DNA from: a virus
Direction: 5' to 3' (one strand)
DNA: 25,595 nucleotides
IMG/VR virus record: IMGVR_UViG_3300021976_000575
Span: 1 to 25,595 of that record
Positions 3,431-18,064 of this stretch are shown one piece after another; the stretch's first letter is position 1, and each line of letters begins with the position of its first letter. Under the pieces are notes generated by a model. That model saw only the letters and a list, made by a program, of their open reading frames with translations. It did not search any database and had not been told where the DNA came from. The position numbers and the translations under genes are program-made.

Positions 3431-4285
3431 TTGCGTATGGGTCGCAAAACGGTAGCACTTCTAATAAGTTTCCTTATTCTGCCACTTCAGCTCTACGGGC
3501 AAGAGCTGAGGGGCACGGCGGTGGTGGCGGCATTTGATTCGAACCATGCAGTTATTGCCGTGGATAGTCGGATTGCCACTACCGACGGAAGAACAGGAAT
3601 GACGTGTAAGTTTGTTCTGCATCCACATACGCTTCAGGTAGCAGCGGGTTCGGCAGGCTACATCCCAGCTGGCGGAGGAACTGCACGGACTATCTTCGAC
3701 ATTTCGAACTACGATTCAGATTTTTCTAATGCAAAAACCGCTCAACAGCTAGAAGCGGCTGTTACAGCATGGACAGAAACCGCGAAGTCTCTCTTTCAAG
3801 AAGGGTTCAAAACAACCCCCAATCTTTTGGAGATAAATCCCGAAACTGGAGCCTTTCTCGAAGCTTTGTTTTTTGCTGTGGTCGACAATGGTACGGTGAG
3901 AGCGGTTAGAGTAACTCTGATCAAAGCCCCTATGGATAACGTCATAACCCCTAAAGTTAAGCTTGTCCCTTTGCCTGATCACGACCATCCATCGGAACTC
4001 TGGTTTTTGGGCGAAGCCACGAAGACTGAGCAAGAACTACTAGCAAATCGAACGTCTCGCGCTCAGTCAAATCAGAAAATTCTGCGAGACCTCATCGATG
4101 CCCCTACTGCGAAAGATCTTCTTAATGCCGAAAGAGCTTTTATCTCCCTCACTGCCGAGTGGTATCCAAAATATGTCGGCCCTCCTGTCGACGCTGCTGA
4201 AATTACACCGACTGACGGAATTGTCCTCGCTACATCAAAAGCGGAGTGTGCTCGAAAACAAGATCCAGTCAGATTGGCACGATAG
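3431..4285 (+). CDS. Exported proteasome-beta-like Ntn hydrolase
   Basis: The 284-residue product begins with a signal peptide (positive MRMGRK, then a hydrophobic core at about 8-19, ending near LYGQ). Immediately after it comes 'RGTAVVAAFDSNHAVIAVDSR'. This matches the mature N-terminus of proteasome beta subunits and HslV: Gly28 before a candidate Thr29 nucleophile, then Asp45 and Arg47 at mature positions 17 and 19. Lys60 follows at mature position 32 in 'TCKFVL', and an AAG turn comes a few residues later. Those are the positions of Thr1, Asp17, Arg19 and Lys33 in proteasomes. I infer an autoprocessed N-terminal-nucleophile amidohydrolase acting outside the cytoplasm; its substrate is unknown. 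The TTG at 3431 has GGAG about ten bases upstream; ATG 3437 is the alternative. Its 3' end overlaps the convergent gene by 17 bases. Confidence 0.7.
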   Translation: MRMGRKTVALLISFLILPLQLYGQELRGTAVVAAFDSNHAVIAVDSRIATTDGRTGMTCKFVLHPHTLQVAAGSAGYIPAGGGTARTIFDISNYDSDFSNAKTAQQLEAAVTAWTETAKSLFQEGFKTTPNLLEINPETGAFLEALFFAVVDNGTVRAVRVTLIKAPMDNVITPKVKLVPLPDHDHPSELWFLGEATKTEQELLANRTSRAQSNQKILRDLIDAPTAKDLLNAERAFISLTAEWYPKYVGPPVDAAEITPTDGIVLATSKAECARKQDPVRLAR

Positions 4286-5030
4286 TGGATACGGTCCAAA
4301 GAGTGTCCATTTCCTGTATGGCCGCTGCAACCACGGATGGACTGTGTATCTCTGACATGAAAGCTGTCTTGCTGCCTGCGTCCTTAATGGATGGGCCTAG
4401 ATGCCATACGGTCGCTTCATCGATAATGATGAATCTGTCATGAACCTTGTCCGTCTTTCTCAATTCGACCGTGTTCCCATGCTGCGACTTGAAATGCTTG
4501 CCTTCTAGCGTGAAGTCATCTTTCGTCCTCATAGTGAGTATCCGTATCGCCACTGTGGCTTGAAGATTCGTTAGCAACTGCCAGGTGGAATCATCGACGT
4601 AGTTGTCCACGATGCATATGTCTGTCTTTGCCGATTGGATGATCTTTCTTATCACTTGAAAGGCATCATGCTGTGAACCCGAAGGCATGAGGTGTTGGAA
4701 GTCGGACGGAAGCTGCCACTCAAGCTGCTCAATCGCGCTTTTCAAAATTGCCAGATGATTATCAAGCCTCTTATTACGCCGCTGCCGAAGCTCCTCTGTG
4801 GATGCATTCAAGGAAATAATTGCTGGAGTAGCTCTATCGAAGCTGCTCACTAACCCATCCAAGGGACCAAAGGCTCTAACCAAAAGTGCTTGGCTCGTTG
4901 AGAGCCACTGTTTTCGTTGAGGGTCGTCCGATGGCAACTTCCAAAGACCGTCCGCTTTTTCTATCTGTAGTGTGAGAAGGTTTATTGTCTTTGCCACGTC
5001 GATATTGGAGGGTGAAGTCGATGAATCCAT
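4269..5030 (-). CDS. Phospholipase-D-like protein, candidate defence effector
   Basis: The product is 253 residues. The C-terminal half looks like one PLD-fold unit: 'DICIVDNYVDDSTW' (about 137-150) forms the usual early strand, and 'HDRFIIID' (197-204) occupies the HKD position with Arg replacing Lys. It is followed by 'HLGPSIKDAG' (210-219). HDR-type variants occur in nuclease-like PLD proteins. The N-terminal half is helical with many Arg/Lys, perhaps a sensor or oligomerisation part. I chose the ATG at 5030 because GAGG lies about seven bases upstream; a TTG at 5072 would add 14 residues with poor support. The gene follows the Abi_C gene by 59 bases on the same strand, which suggests one two-gene operon. 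DNA or RNA cleavage is inferred, not shown. Confidence 0.65.
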   Translation of the reverse strand: MDSSTSPSNIDVAKTINLLTLQIEKADGLWKLPSDDPQRKQWLSTSQALLVRAFGPLDGLVSSFDRATPAIISLNASTEELRQRRNKRLDNHLAILKSAIEQLEWQLPSDFQHLMPSGSQHDAFQVIRKIIQSAKTDICIVDNYVDDSTWQLLTNLQATVAIRILTMRTKDDFTLEGKHFKSQHGNTVELRKTDKVHDRFIIIDEATVWHLGPSIKDAGSKTAFMSEIHSPSVVAAAIQEMDTLWTVSTIVPI

Positions 5031-5089
5031 GGGACCTCGTGTATTTTCAAAACTACGGGTATCTCTGTACAAACAACCAGCAAGGTTAG

Positions 5090-5905
5090 CTATCGGGAGA
5101 GCCGCGCCTCAGATGATTCAATTACGAATGTCGCCAATGCCATTGCCGCATGCGCAGTAAGCCTCGCATGCCTCGCTTCAATCCTATATATGGTTGTGCG
5201 CGTGTCGTGTCCGTGAGCAGATCCTCTCCGGGTCCGCAGTGCCGCCGTTCCATCAACGATGGAAGCCATCCCGCTCAAAATCTTCTTCAAGCCATCGTCC
5301 TCAATTTGGCTCGGATCGAGGTGGAGATGCGACCGTACAACCTTCCAAAGAGGAAGGACGCTTTGATCGGCGGGCAACTGTAGTCCCTCGTCCGCGATGT
5401 ATCCCTTAAACAAAGCTTCTAATAGAGCACACGATGCTGTGACCGCCGCTTGAGGATCGGAGTCGAGATTTGAGAAAATTCGGTCAAACTCCTGTTGGAC
5501 TCCCTTCAAGTCGCGTTCGTGAACAATCTCCTGGAGGGTCCGAGTCGCAATCATTGAGCCAAGCTGCAGGATGTATCCACCTTTCTGATAGGAAAGCCCA
5601 TGTGCACTCAACTGAGATTCGATCCTCTGACGATGTCCTTCGACGGGATGGGGCTGTCCCCAGCTCGGTGGAGGCACTGCTTCCATTAATTCTTCAATTA
5701 GGCACCCAAGTGCTGAGAGAGGGTCCGGCATTTCTTTATTCGCTCTACGCAACCACTCATGACATTTCTGTTGTTTGTTGCCTTCAGGAACTTCTTGTGG
5801 GAAACCTGCCATAAAGAAACGAGAGTCTATCTGAGTGTGCGTGTAATAGGTACTGAAAACGTCAGAGATCACGGCGACGAGGGGCATCGGAATCTGTCTT
5901 TGCAC
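5090..5905 (-). CDS. Abortive infection family protein (Abi_C domain)
   Basis: The 271-residue product ends in what I recognise as the Abi_C-terminal domain. 'DPQAAVTASCALLEALFKGY' (150-169) opens a helical bundle. 'LRTRRGSAHGH' (223-232) is the conserved RN..GxxHG-like turn, and 'RHARLTAHAAMALATFVIES' (245-264) the closing helix. The N-terminal part has 'NKQQKCHEWLRRAN' and 'DPLSALGCLIEELME', common in this family. Members are linked to phage exclusion, though the biochemical activity is generally unknown. The GTG start at 5905 has TGAGG six bases upstream; ATG 5887 is a fallback. It leads the pair with the PLD-like gene and may be a superinfection-exclusion cargo of the prophage. Confidence 0.75.
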   Translation of the reverse strand: MQRQIPMPLVAVISDVFSTYYTHTQIDSRFFMAGFPQEVPEGNKQQKCHEWLRRANKEMPDPLSALGCLIEELMEAVPPPSWGQPHPVEGHRQRIESQLSAHGLSYQKGGYILQLGSMIATRTLQEIVHERDLKGVQQEFDRIFSNLDSDPQAAVTASCALLEALFKGYIADEGLQLPADQSVLPLWKVVRSHLHLDPSQIEDDGLKKILSGMASIVDGTAALRTRRGSAHGHDTRTTIYRIEARHARLTAHAAMALATFVIESSEARLSR

Positions 5906-6080: not shown

Positions 6081-6341
6081 ATGGCGTTCCATTACGAGCA
6101 GGGCTGGCGCTGCACGTTCTTCATGGACGATAGGAGGAGGACTGCTCTGCCCCGTCGTGCGTTCTTCACCGCAGACGAGGCCCTGTTCGAGTTCATCCGA
6201 AGAGGTGGAGGTATCGACGGCAGCGATACAAGGTTCTATATCGAGTCAGCCATCAAGAGGCAGCATGGAGACGTGACGCTGAGGCTTAGCGAAGAGCAGT
6301 ACCAGGCACTGCACGCTACTCCAAAACCTGTCCGAAAGTAA
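6081..6341 (+). CDS. Small hypothetical protein
   Basis: This encodes 86 residues, basic and mixed alpha/beta, with no recognised domain. The reading frame has ordinary codon use and a plausible compact sequence (aromatic-rich start 'FHYEQGWRCTFFMDD', helical 'TADEALFEFIRRGG'). No close ribosome site is visible before the ATG. It is divergent from the Abi_C gene, with 175 bases between them that should hold promoters for one or both; I could not pick a convincing -35/-10 pair. Function unknown. Confidence 0.5.
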   Translation: MAFHYEQGWRCTFFMDDRRRTALPRRAFFTADEALFEFIRRGGGIDGSDTRFYIESAIKRQHGDVTLRLSEEQYQALHATPKPVRK

Positions 6342-6452: not shown

Positions 6453-6486
6453 CAAAAAACAGAGGGGGAGTTTCCCTTCCCCCTCT
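6453..6486 (-). terminator. Rho-independent terminator after the first small paralog
   Basis: AGAGGGGGA (6461-6469) pairs perfectly with TCCCCCTCT (6478-6486) around an 8-base loop. Read on the minus strand, the stem is followed by GTTTTTTGGC (6451-6460), a proper U-tract. It lies about 22 bases past the stop of the minus-strand gene at 6509-6781. Confidence 0.8.
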
Positions 6487-6508
6487 ATGGTCTACTTCAA
6501 GAAATTCA

Positions 6509-6781
6509 TCACCGTCCGCCAGTTCTACGGCCAGACGAGTTGGAAGGAGCGGTTTCGCCGGAGGTTACTTGCCCATTGCCACCGTTACCGGGGGTTTCGT
6601 TTCCGTTCTGCGGCCCTCCTAGCCAACTCTGACCACCACTGCCATCGCCTTGATTAGCTGAAAGCCAGCTCTCAGCAGCTTCGGCCTCGTTTGTACCGGA
6701 CCGATTGTCGGTCTGTTGGCCGGTTTTTTTGATTGTGTTTTGGGCGGCAGTGCTGAGCCCTTCTGCTTGTATTTCGGACAT
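6509..6781 (-). CDS. Small Gly/Asn-rich protein, member A of a tandem paralog family
   Basis: The 90-residue product begins 'MSEIQAEGLSTAAQNTI', matching the N-terminus of the two genes upstream on this strand (TEN..PAAQN). The rest diverges into low-complexity sequence rich in Gly, Asn, Ser and Gln, with two 'SWL' repeats ('ESWLSANQG', 'QSWLGGPQN'). I use the ATG at 6781 because a conserved leader with GGAG eight bases upstream precedes it. The in-frame ATG at 6805 lies inside that leader. No Cys, no signal peptide. Function unknown; the disordered tail suggests a binding or surface role at most. A strong terminator follows. Confidence 0.55.
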   Translation of the reverse strand: MSEIQAEGLSTAAQNTIKKTGQQTDNRSGTNEAEAAESWLSANQGDGSGGQSWLGGPQNGNETPGNGGNGQVTSGETAPSNSSGRRTGGR

Positions 6782-6816
6782 GGCGGATCTCCACAGTTGC
6801 GTCATTGTTGGATTTG
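6782..6816 (-). repeat. Conserved 5' leader, copy A
   Basis: Reading the minus strand, ATCCAACAATGACGCAAC, then GTGGAGATCCG, immediately precede the ATG at 6781. Near-identical sequence precedes the starts at 7154 and 8108. The GGAG ribosome site is in its 3' part. Confidence 0.7.
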
Positions 6817-6848
6817 GGTAAAGCGGACTTCTCCGGAGCCAGCTCTCC

Positions 6849-7154
6849 TCAGTGAGAGAGGTGGTAGCTGATCACCTGGTATGCATCGGAGGCTGTCATC
6901 GGTTTGTCATTTTCATTCGGACTGCAGAATGTTTCCAGGAACGGGGCCGCACTCGTGAACTTTGGCCCGTATCTGGCTGGCTCCGCGATGCAAAAGCGAA
7001 ATAGGGTAATCAAGCCTTGGAGGTCTGCGCCTAGTTGATCGAAGGTTGGTGACTGGTCCTTCTGGGCGGCAAGGTTCTTAGCACTTTCGGCGTTGTACTC
7101 CGGTGGGTCTTCGATTGTGTTCTGGGCGGCAGGATTCTTAGTATTTTCGGTCAT
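6849..7154 (-). CDS. Hypothetical protein, member B of the tandem paralog family
   Basis: The 101-residue product opens 'MTENTKNPAAQNTIEDP' and repeats the motif imperfectly a few residues later as 'AESAKNLAAQKDQ'. The tail ends 'MTASDAYQVISYHL', similar to 'LSASDAASVAAKLM' and 'LTPSEAAKLIAPLA' in member C. It is therefore a short relative of the larger protein. The ATG at 7154 has GGAG eight bases upstream in the conserved leader. In this copy the upstream ATG/frame is lost through a small length change, so the leader is conserved as a translation signal rather than as protein. Function unknown. Confidence 0.6.
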   Translation of the reverse strand: MTENTKNPAAQNTIEDPPEYNAESAKNLAAQKDQSPTFDQLGADLQGLITLFRFCIAEPARYGPKFTSAAPFLETFCSPNENDKPMTASDAYQVISYHLSH

Positions 7155-7188
7155 GACGGATCTCCACTATGCGTCAGTATTGGATTGA
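7155..7188 (-). repeat. Conserved 5' leader, copy B
   Basis: On the minus strand AATCCAATACTGACGCA, then AGTGGAGATCCGTC, precede the ATG at 7154. It matches leaders A and C apart from a few substitutions and a one-base shortening. Confidence 0.65.
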
Positions 7189-7233
7189 ATAAGGCATATC
7201 AAGGACACGCTGTTTTGCCGTGTCGCCAGGTTA

Positions 7234-7266
7234 TCCAAAAGGTGCAGTGTGGTCGTCGGCTGCACC
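7234..7266 (-). terminator. Candidate terminator after member C
   Basis: GGTGCAG (7241-7247) pairs with CTGCACC (7260-7266) around 12 bases. Read on the minus strand the stem is followed by TTTTGG, a short U-run. It lies about 50 bases after the stop at 7317. A second small stem (GACACG/CGTGTC, about 7204-7224) follows. The U-tract is weak. Confidence 0.45.
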
Positions 7267-7316
7267 AATTGGAAGACAAATCTTTGCTCCGGAGCTAGAT
7301 CTCTTCAGAGATGGCC

Positions 7317-8108
7317 TCACGATGCTGAAGAAGGATCAATAGCCTTACAGTAGTTGACAATGTTATTCATCTCCAGCCAAGTGGTGCCGTCTAGGCCGGG
7401 GAAGGTGGCGTCGGGACCCGGATCCGGATATAGGTCGCGGAACTGTATGGCGAGGGGTGCAATCAGCTTGGCCGCCTCACTGGGAGTTAATCCGCGAAAC
7501 GGATTACAAAGAGTGGGGTTGTGATAGAGGTTCGTGCAGCAACCCGAAATCTTATCTAGACAGCTCTGAATATCGGGTGACCACGGTCGGTCGTTCTCCT
7601 GCGATGAAACGAGAACGAGGTAGAGGATGTACTGAATACCGCTCAAGGCATCAAAATCAGATTGCCAATTCGCACTGGAATAAGCGACTTCGCTGGGGAT
7701 TTCGACTAGGCTCTGGTCGGATCGAATTTGGGCGCTTTCGGTGCCATGCTGCTGATCAAACACAATGGTCTGGCACCAAGAGAGAATGAAGCCTGCGAGG
7801 TTGGCGATGCCGGTGTCAGCAGATGTCTGCAGTTGTTGGGCGTAAGGCATCATTAGCTTGGCGGCAACGCTGGCGGCATCGCTGGCGCTTAATTGGTCCG
7901 TCCCGGGCGGCTCCTCCAACATGAATTTGGAGGTCTGTTGGATGCCCCCCAGCTTGTCCTGAATGGCTTCTTCATACGTGCTCGAGGGCAAGTTGTTGAC
8001 GATGATTTGAATTTGGTTGAACGCTCTCCAGGTTGGCTCGTAGTCCAGGTAGGAAGCATCGGCTTTGCTGGGGTTCTGGGCGGCAGGAATCTGAGCATTT
8101 TCGGTCAT
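7317..8108 (-). CDS. Hypothetical protein, member C (largest) of the tandem paralog family
   Basis: The 263-residue product begins 'MTENAQIPAAQNPSKAD' and continues into a helical protein. It has two related halves: 'LSASDAASVAAKLMMPYAQQL' in the first and 'LTPSEAAKLIAPLAIQF' in the second, each followed by a region ending in hydrophobic helices. This suggests an internal duplication. Several Cys occur in the second half (CLDKISGCC, C near LCNPF). There is no signal peptide and no domain I recognise. The ATG at 8108 is chosen for the GGAG eight bases before it; ATG 8132 lies within the conserved leader. It is the first gene of the minus-strand cassette and divergent from the gene at 8381. Confidence 0.7.
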   Translation of the reverse strand: MTENAQIPAAQNPSKADASYLDYEPTWRAFNQIQIIVNNLPSSTYEEAIQDKLGGIQQTSKFMLEEPPGTDQLSASDAASVAAKLMMPYAQQLQTSADTGIANLAGFILSWCQTIVFDQQHGTESAQIRSDQSLVEIPSEVAYSSANWQSDFDALSGIQYILYLVLVSSQENDRPWSPDIQSCLDKISGCCTNLYHNPTLCNPFRGLTPSEAAKLIAPLAIQFRDLYPDPGPDATFPGLDGTTWLEMNNIVNYCKAIDPSSAS

Positions 8109-8144
8109 GACGGATCTCCACTGTTGCGTCATTTGTTGGATTGG
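8109..8144 (-). repeat. Conserved 5' leader, copy C
   Basis: On the minus strand CCAATCCAACAAATGACGC, then AACAGTGGAGATCCGTC, precede the ATG at 8108. It is almost identical to copy A and close to copy B. Confidence 0.7.
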
Positions 8145-8253
8145 GCAACGGATGCAGGCGGGAGAAAGTTGATCGAAGGTAAAGACTATCCGAGTTCAGG
8201 CTTCTCGGAATTGGGACCAGTGTAACAATCTGGTTGTACCGCGTCTCTGCCTC

Positions 8254-9260: not shown

Positions 9261-9302
9261 AAAGGGGCCGGGAATTGGTTAAAACCAATTCCCGGCCCCT
9301 TT
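9261..9302. terminator. Bidirectional terminator with a perfect 20-bp stem
   Basis: AAAGGGGCCGGGAATTGGTT (9261-9280) and its exact reverse complement (9283-9302) flank an AA dinucleotide. The stem ends in A/T runs on both sides, so it can act in both directions. It separates the plus-strand gene ending at 9253 from the minus-strand late operon ending at 9330. Confidence 0.9.
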
Positions 9303-15880: not shown

Positions 15881-18064
15881 TTACATCTGCGAGAGGAGGC
15901 CAGCCTTGATACAGGGAGCGAGCATCTTATGCGATCCGATTGTCGACGGGTGAACGCCGTCACCCAGCAGCGTCGCAGCCGTCAAAGAGTTCACGTTGCT
16001 GACCGTGGATAGATCCACCACCGGAACCGCATACGAAGCACAGACAGCTTTGATGGCTGCAACCACGATAGGGTGATTCGTTATGCTCAGGCCATTGTTC
16101 TTGTACGGGATGACCCACACAAGGCGAATGGAGGGCTTCGCTTTGAGGAATCCCTCGACCGCTGCCCGAAGGTATCCGTAGTACGTCGTTGCCGTCGCCG
16201 TATCGGTGATCGCTCCAAGGTTCGAGAGCAACGTCGTGTCGTTCGTGCCTAGGAAGATTGTCACGATATCAACGTTTGTGAGCACAGTTGCAAGCGTCTG
16301 CCCGGCGGTCGGCCACGGCCCCGGTGCATTGATCTGCACGGCACCGACCGCGACCGAGCCGTCCCCGGCAGCTTGGGGTAGTGTCGAGTCGATAATGCCA
16401 CCACTCGATAAGCCATTGACGGGGTCGCCGGTAGCAACAGGGCTTCCAGTAACTTGGAACATCTCGAAGATTTGATCGGTGCGACGGCCTCCGCGTGCGT
16501 CTTGGCTCGGGATGGTGACGCCGGTTGCCGCGACGATGTCGGCTTGGTAGAGCCCCGTCATCTTGGCCGTGATCGAATCGCCCCACGGCATCCAGTTCTT
16601 GCCGACGAGCTGGCGCTGCATGTATGTTGTGAGCGCGTCCGCCGTCAAATACCCGAATGCCTTATAGCTGCCGGGGACCGTCGAGCCATTGACAAGCATG
16701 ACCGTTGCTGGGCTGTACCATTGCGGGCGCGTAGACCCCGAAGCAGTCGCAATCCAGAAGCGGAACCATACAGCCCCGGCAGGCACCGCGATAGGCGTTC
16801 CGGCAGCGACAGGCGAGGTGATAGACGACAGCACGGTCCTATCAGCGTTGTAAAAGATCGCTGACGCGCTGCCGGAGATCGCGTCAACAATGATGTTCGA
16901 CGTGATGAACGACAACCCTTGAACGTTGATATACGGCGACGTCACAAAGTTCGCAATGTTCACGATAGTGTTATCGAACTTCAAGTATCCCGTTTGTGTG
17001 CTTGACGAATCGAACAGATTGATAATCGCAGGCTTCGTCGCAATAGCCAGTGCGGACGATGTACTGATAGCCGCACTCTGCGCCACGCCGATGCTTGCCG
17101 ACACGGGCGCGATGGCAGCGGTTAGGGCTGTTGAGTTGACGTACCCGAAAGTCTGATACGTCCCCGGCAGAGCCTCGTACGCAACCATGACCGTGTTGAT
17201 ATCGACGAGCGGGGTGATTCCCGACGCCGACGTAACAGGCATGTAGAAACGAATCCAGGCAGCACCCGCAGGCACGGGGATAGGGGTGTTCGCTGCGGTG
17301 TCCGCCGTCGAGTAAACACTCAGGAAGGTTTGGTCGCCTTTATAAAAGCAGAGGCCATATCCGGGGGCAGGCGAAGGACTTCCATGCAAGATGACGTTGA
17401 CGAGAATGTTCGTTGCGCTTCCAACCGGGATGAAAGCCGAAGTCTGAAACCCGGTCAGAGCTTGCACCGTGCCGTCAGCCTTTAGCGCTCCCGTAACAAC
17501 TCGGGTTTTGTCGAAGAGGTTTACCCCTGCGGGCGTCACGGCTGCGACGGCCTTTGTTGTCATGGCACCGAGGGTGGCGACGGAAACGTCCCCCTGTGGT
17601 CCGGTCGCTCCCGTAGCACCCTGAATGCCAGTTTGTCCGGTCGCTCCCGTAGCACCCTGAATGCCTTGATCACCCTGCGGCCCTTGCGGACCCGGCTGCA
17701 CGGTGACGCCTGGTTGCAGGTTCGGAGTGAATGTGTCGAAGCTGAACGTCGATCCCGTGGGCTGGAAGGCCGAATATCCCGAGCCCAGCAGGGTCGCGCC
17801 CGTAGCATCGTCTGTGACGGTTACCGAATAAGCAATGTACTGAGGCACCGTTAAAAATGTGTCCGCGAGCTGGATCGAGAACGCACCGTTGACCACCTGA
17901 GTCGTCACAGCGCGGGAGCTCGTCTGACCGCCGTTTCCTGCGCGGAAGGACGTAGCTTGGCCCTTGCTTGTGACCGGCTGAAAATGAATAGTCGCCGAGC
18001 TGATGAGAGCGCCAGTAGCGTCTTTGAGCGCGGTTGCGCTTACCGTCGTGTATCCGGTTGGCAT
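15881..18064 (-). CDS. Tail fibre with collagen stalk, duplicated beta domain and SGNH esterase
   Basis: The 727-residue product has four parts. Residues 1-120 are a beta-rich virion-attachment region. Residues 125-159 are twelve Gly-X-Y triplets, a collagen-like stalk. Residues 181-309 and 348-472 are two copies of a domain starting 'NLFD' and containing '[13 protein letters not shown]' / '[13 protein letters not shown]', ending 'GTYQTFGY' / 'GSYKAFGY'. These look like jelly-roll binding modules. Residues 487-727 are an SGNH/GDSL hydrolase: Ser497 in 'WGDSITA', Gly525, Asn608 in 'GTND', and Asp702/His705 in 'GDGVHP'. Together they suggest a receptor-binding fibre that binds and deacetylates surface polysaccharide. 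AAGGA is five bases before the ATG. The substrate is inferred. Confidence 0.9.
17600..17665 (-). repeat. 30-bp perfect direct repeat in the collagen stalk
   Basis: Positions 17600-17629 and 17636-17665 are identical over 30 bases, a 36-base period equal to four Gly-X-Y triplets. Each copy carries GGTCGCTCCCGTAGCACCC. Recombination or slippage here would change stalk length in frame. Confidence 0.9.

Follow-up and report, generated by a model that had tools for sequence, protein, structure and literature searches.

A shared gene-start module before dissimilar payload genes in the accessory region of a temperate siphovirus

A three-gene unit between integrase and tail genes

The whole stretch of DNA analysed here, which we call the window, corresponds to a 25,595-base record in IMG/VR. 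It carries an integrase gene at positions 1-1266, the sole integrase profiled there, which matches phage integrases, and according to profile searches the minus strand encodes head, connector and tail proteins between about 11 and 25.5 kb. The phage, from soil, is a temperate siphovirus and its host is most likely an Edaphobacter-like member of the Acidobacteria. Between the integrase and the tail block sits an accessory region that includes the consecutive minus-strand genes C, B and A, in this order, and a terminator-like hairpin follows the last of them. The DNA upstream of C showed no recognisable promoter of the sigma-70 type. The features of the unit are as follows.

8109-8215, minus strand: type I leader of gene C, 107 nt, with hairpin, C-rich stretch, Shine-Dalgarno sequence GGAG and start, from an alignment of 15 leaders
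8189-8209, minus strand: leader hairpin TCCGAG-n9-CTCGGA (TCCGGG/CCCGGA in most relatives)
8109-8143, minus strand: minimal start module of C, CAATCCAACAAATGACGCAACAGTGGAGATCCGTC
7317-8108, minus strand: gene C, first cistron, an open reading frame with a 792-nt coding sequence for 263 aa
7300-8080, minus strand: 781-bp segment identical to a second phage, L016, with flanking leader and intergenic DNA about 85% identical
7287-7302, minus strand: trailer of C, AGATCTAGCTCCGGAG (weak)
7155-7264, minus strand: type II leader between C and B, also present at a Sinorhizobium meliloti locus and before gene D of L016
7155-7188, minus strand: minimal start module of B
6849-7154, minus strand: gene B, 101 aa, a class-a N-terminus (MTENTKNPAAQNTIEDPPEYNAESAKN) followed by an unrelated body
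6831-6846, minus strand: trailer of B, AGAGCTGGCTCCGGAG (weak)
6782-6816, minus strand: minimal start module of A
6509-6781, minus strand: gene A, 90 aa, a disordered protein of the WLGGPQNG class with a C-terminal RRTGGR
6459-6488, minus strand: terminator-like (intrinsic) hairpin, an 11-bp stem followed by T5, 3' of A, closing the C-B-A unit

A preliminary description of this DNA had reported three neighbouring minus-strand genes with a common leader, and both the open reading frames and a self-BLAST of the window bear this out. The starts of C and B align over 71 bp at 89% identity (E 8e-18), those of C and A over 47 bp (E 1e-9) and those of B and A over 88 bp (E 5e-8). A 45-base leader pattern had no match in 100 shuffles, and together these values place the sharing of the leader by C, B and A far above chance. 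The common N-terminus described for all three proteins is weakest in A (MSEIQAEGLSTAAQN), though the leader of A is unmistakable. The similarity reported after the stop codons of B and C consists of 16 bases of which 2 differ; the window self-BLAST did not report it at E 0.1, no such trailer follows A, and a common trailer is only suggestive.

The three bodies call for a more differentiated account than the paralog family first proposed. Gene A does belong to one payload family, and calling its body low-complexity undersells it, as it is homologous to proteins elsewhere and scores z 14.4 in a shuffle comparison with the Edaphobacter modestus prophage protein L052_8201. Homology could not be demonstrated between the bodies of B and C (shuffle p 0.27) or between the two halves of C (shuffle p 0.10). 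Because B opens with an N-terminus of class-a type (TIEDPPEYNAESAKN), we regard it as chimeric. None of the three proteins has a significant match to a Pfam, PHROGs or PADLOC family, NCBIfam returned no match for the proteins queried (B, C and relatives of A), and a protein search with C found no match in cultured phages, plasmids or GTDB genomes. AlphaFold2 predicts C to be all-helical at low confidence (pLDDT 45); a fold search with this model and with that of a payload from another locus, L063 (pLDDT 32), was discarded as the confidence was too low.

Several neighbouring genes are worth recording. An Abi_C domain protein at 5090-5905 on the minus strand (Pfam E 5e-18), AbiJ-like in PADLOC (E 1.5e-12), is a candidate abortive-infection gene of the prophage, and a PLD-like protein at 4269-5072, also on the minus strand, matches the PADLOC candidate defence family PDC-S05 (E 1e-34). 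These two neighbours mark the region as accessory and are silent on the roles of A, B and C. An 86-aa gene on the plus strand (6081-6341) also adjoins a module copy in an Edaphobacter MAG (L023), and a near-perfect 42-bp palindrome at 9261-9302, between the accessory region and the late genes, is perhaps a bidirectional terminator. Within the late genes, a putative tail-associated protein (15881-18064, minus strand) combines a collagen-like stretch with a GDSL hydrolase domain and has a relative in the E. modestus prophage L052.

Leaders and payload classes behind the common start

The starts have in common the core CAATCCAACAAYGACGCAACAGTGGAGATCCGTC-ATG-ACC-GAA-AA, and their consensus is GACGCAACAGTGGAGATCCGTC. 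Two kinds of leader, differing in their upstream half, precede it. In type I leaders (15 aligned) about 105 nt 5' of the ATG are conserved, with a mean column identity of 76%, and they alone contain the inverted repeat TCCGRG-n4..9-CYCGGA, which is absent before A and from type II leaders. The loop length of this hairpin ranges between 4 and 9; in the alignment 89.8% of the hairpin cells are paired and a compensatory change is seen at one pair, so that pairing and covariation appear to lend the hairpin modest support. RNAalifold found no stable consensus structure in the leader alignment, folds of single leaders were mixed (z from +1.2 to -2.4), and the leader matched none of the Rfam 15 covariance models. 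Since gene A retains only the last ~35 nt of the leader, we define the minimal start module as the part that internal cistrons keep.

The genes behind this one leader fall into at least four payload classes between which no similarity was detectable, and none of the classes matched a Pfam, NCBIfam or PADLOC family where scanned. Class a comprises disordered proteins with short motifs, namely A, gene D of L016, proteins at eight further loci (L023, L052, L053, L057, L060, L061, L062 and L065) and the rhizobial proteins. The helix-rich class b contains C, B and a tandem pair at locus L064; the bodies of this pair are clearly homologous to each other, one of them is weakly linked to C (p 0.013) and the other shows no link, and the class is grouped by appearance, not by proven homology. 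Class c is a 389-aa protein (L063) with a strand-rich prediction of very low confidence, and class d is a 165-aa protein found at three loci (L054, L056 and L059). The proposal that a conserved start is carried by variable payloads is thus upheld, with at least four dissimilar classes in Acidobacteriaceae, one in rhizobia, and one class that also occurs without the module.

That last class is informative about how the arrangement may arise. A protein search identified class-d relatives in other Acidobacteriaceae at 71%, 64% and 56% identity, at loci that gave no significant leader match (best E 0.13). The leaderless proteins begin with MSSTPTTKQVQSPLNL or MPDNTQVQSPLNL and the leader-bearing ones with MSEKTMVPQ...DGQVQSPLNL, in which MSEKTMVPQALHTSNAEELPHMRDSDGQ joins the common body at VQSPLNL. 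As the leaderless set is the wider and more divergent one, the module was probably added in class d and not lost, which suggests that it was transplanted onto a pre-existing gene. As judged from these alignments, we show that the module recurs before four dissimilar classes and is joined, in one of them, to a body that exists elsewhere without it. A putatively secreted protein of ~555 aa adjoins the class-d gene at all three loci (L054:5231-6895, L056:8909-10573 and L059:9189-10859), and a relative of it (L062:10281-12125) lies near a class-a gene.

Within class a, the octapeptide WLGGPQNG occurs 21 times in proteins of the family and has no copy with one to three mismatches, while its codons vary, with up to six codons used at the leucine. 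The motifs ARNPQTG, DPPEY, GQLKWNEQR, TKHRFS and GRGK also recur, most of them in both phyla. An octapeptide that is invariant despite codon variation points to purifying selection at the protein level on short motifs in a disordered background. We found nothing on WLGGPQNG in the literature, and its motif conservation suggests a family of unstudied proteins that probably have a binding partner.

Copies in a second phage and in bacterial genomes

The phage contig L016 (IMGVR_UViG_3300048861_000125) encodes C in a 792-nt sequence that departs from that of the window at 2 positions, both within the first 28 nt. Its tail proteins are only about 45% identical to those of the window, i.e. the two phages are otherwise different, and the array runs opposite to the tail genes in L016 and in the same direction as the tail genes in the window. 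Uniform divergence cannot produce a segment of 781 identical bp between flanks of ~85% identity, whereas a recent transfer delimited by the conserved start and trailer can; as far as these alignments can tell, this shows that the payload block of gene C was exchanged recently between two otherwise different phages. The next gene after C in L016 is D (from 3101), which has the same leader, combines B-like (DPPEYN) with A-like (WLGGPQNGNET) pieces and contains one in-frame stop. Two related phages, L017 and L018, whose tail protein is 69% and 60% identical over the part compared, gave no match to the array in the stretches compared.

Further copies of the module were also present in bacteria, as the preliminary description had anticipated with its guess at acidobacterial genomes: copies are found in the Edaphobacter clade and elsewhere in Acidobacteriaceae from soil as well as in plant-nodule rhizobia, and its refuting outcome, no further copies anywhere, failed to materialise. 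A gapped DNA pattern of the start matched five contigs in GTDB (two of Edaphobacter, two of the Acidobacteriaceae MAG Bin6.3 and one of a Rhizobiales isolate), and BLAST within the pattern-positive genomes raised the number of locations to five for Bin6.3 and three for E. modestus DSM 18101, one of the latter lying in a prophage. A survey of the Edaphobacter clade and genus found the module in about 5 of 62 genomes; a single genome holds as many as five copies, and some copies are chromosomal. One genome, G145, has four matches, one of which (L058) is degenerate, and more copies lie in G102, G155 and G004. In wider surveys the module occurred in 2 of 120 genomes of the family and 7 of 397 of the order, and among rhizobial groups in 1 of 200 and 2 of 397 genomes, one of the latter two at E 1e-3 only. 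A related locus is present on plasmids of Sinorhizobium, Rhizobium and Phyllobacterium. The module family is therefore patchy, often multicopy where present, cross-phylum and not universal.

The rhizobial copies adjoin a ligD-like gene, not a clear phage, and some fall inside IMG/VR provirus calls; no EcfG-type general-stress promoter was found upstream of them. Leader-pattern scans of viral sequences returned only the E. modestus provirus, or nothing. Exact 16-mer leader matches in nine viral contigs (L007-L015) came with no payload similarity and were treated as chance. SRAP (SOS response-associated peptidase) genes lie near three module copies (L016:1286-1969, L052:9961-10641 and L053:5984-6385). 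Three Acido-Lenti-1 RNAs (L027:2105-2149, 2415-2459 and 6262-6306) and an ar35 sRNA (L026:767-863) were also seen near module copies.

A candidate start module, its alternatives and its nearest parallels

We propose that C-B-A is an accessory (moron-type) operon in which a mobile gene-start module, serving as a translation signal in cis and as recombination arms, precedes interchangeable payloads, and from the sequence comparisons we give this reading a probability of about 0.62. The module would comprise ~35 nt of leader including a Shine-Dalgarno sequence, followed by the ATG and some 8-12 initial codons, extended in first or only genes by ~70 nt of additional upstream 5' leader with the hairpin and the C-rich stretch. 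It would serve in cis, at the mRNA level, to signal translation initiation, through a strong Shine-Dalgarno sequence and fixed A-rich start codons, with the hairpin and a CUCC stretch perhaps tuning access. Repeated copies may double as homology arms that allow payloads to be duplicated and swapped by recombination. More speculatively, the payloads might be cargo for lysogeny or stress, with protein products, the disordered WLGGPQNG family among them, that work inside the host cell. A bolder version, in which a mobile expression module lets bacteria of two phyla, along with their phages, take up and express new genes and a dedicated partner reads the cross-phylum WLGGPQNG family, is tentative and, in our estimate, somewhat unlikely.

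Whether the conserved start is a translation signal or an N-terminal tag had been left open in the preliminary description, and the codons around the ATG favour the former. In all 19 starts compared, codon 3 is GAA; codon 5 reads NCT and codon 8 has T as its last base, even though the encoded residue is A, T or S at the former and P, S or L at the latter. Conservation at third positions matches that at first positions (mean pairwise identity 0.72 and 0.68), and pairs with the same residue use the same codon in 83% of cases at the starts versus 59% inside WLGGPQNG of the same gene family. Such codon fixation while residues vary suggests that the nucleotides around the start are themselves under selection, as they would be in a translation-initiation region, and the module also persists before internal cistrons. 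Fixed third positions could partly come from recent spread, the copies being related by descent; the synonymous divergence inside WLGGPQNG argues that this is not the whole story. We consider it unlikely that the N-terminus, MTENxxxPAAQN, is instead a peptide tag for targeting or cargo loading or a RiPP-type leader peptide. M-[TS]-E and P-A-A-Q-N do recur with several payloads, and class-a proteins have repeated short motifs after the N-terminus, as RiPP precursors can. The untranslated leader, however, is conserved together with the codons, and L064 gene 1 (MTENIPAPKN), gene D of L016 (MTEKHESN) and class d (MSEKTMVPQALHT) keep the leader with poorly conserved residues. No maturation or secretion enzyme gene was recurrent among the neighbours compared, part of which were profiled.

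An ordinary tandem gene family, made of recent duplicates whose bodies diverged while the leader was kept as non-coding regulatory DNA, would account for the tandem copies in the window and at L064, where homology of the bodies is clear, and for the similar trailers of B and C. It sits poorly with payload classes that lack detectable mutual homology and with a payload block that moved between different phages, and the independent leaderless relatives already contradict it for class d, which makes it quite unlikely overall. Very unlikely, in our judgement, is a regulatory RNA responsive to a ligand, temperature or a protein and controlling a scattered regulon, with the module kept for regulation and not for translation strength. 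A 105-nt leader with a recurrent hairpin, a C-rich anti-SD-like stretch and a Shine-Dalgarno sequence is compatible with such an RNA, but its consensus structure is weak, it matches no Rfam family, the internal cistron A makes do with the last ~35 nt, and type I and type II leaders differ in their upstream half.

The proposed start module resembles two known systems. Start-Associated Sequences (SAS) and extended SAS (ESAS) of Cluster K mycobacteriophages and Cluster EF Microbacterium phages follow a 13-bp consensus, GGGATAGGAGCCC or GGGAAAGGACCCC, in 11-19 copies per Cluster K phage, are essentially absent from mycobacterial host genomes and are suspected to act in translation initiation; about half of the Cluster K sites have an inverted repeat with 17-bp arms and a variable spacer just upstream (PMC3203893; PMC7302621). 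Likewise, a conserved ribosome-binding sequence stands here directly before the starts of unrelated genes in a non-structural part of the genome, and a subset of sites has an upstream inverted repeat with a variable spacer, albeit with arms of 6 bp. Unlike SAS, the module has a different consensus, conserves ~35 nt plus 8-12 codons, and is present in two to three copies per phage array and one to five per host genome, in two phyla and on host chromosomes. The erp or upstream-homology-box genes of Borrelia cp32 prophages encode surface lipoproteins whose N-terminus is a lipoprotein leader and sorting sequence (PMC10016077). There, as here, one upstream and N-terminal segment is carried by payloads of independent origin, in prophage-borne operons with frequent recombination (erp, PMC10016077); the module N-terminus, MTENAKNPAAQN, differs in having no signal peptide, being hydrophilic with neither a hydrophobic core nor a lipobox cysteine, and in being conserved largely at the nucleotide level. 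SAS/ESAS would thus be the nearest parallel at the level of the motif and erp at that of the gene family; the module appears to work like both and, because the SAS consensus and the lipoprotein signal are absent, to be a member of neither.

The locus offers a direct view, at sequence level, of a way in which new genes could be made by phages and soil bacteria, by placing a portable start before unrelated coding sequences and swapping payloads through it. Class d offers a way to test the capture step, since its protein occurs both with the module and in its absence, and WLGGPQNG, kept through synonymous change in Acidobacteriota and rhizobia, marks a protein family that has not been studied. 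The closest bacterial counterpart is the locus by the ligD-like gene on S. meliloti pSymB-type megaplasmids, which has a type II leader and a class-a protein, unannotated or annotated as hypothetical, in which both WLGGPQNG and ARNPQTG occur. Neither helical nor beta payloads were seen there, and it differs from the phage arrays in usually occupying a single place per replicon and in being kept across strains of the species. Its class-a gene (L022:3109-3800) is frameshifted in S. meliloti 1021 and open in other strains.
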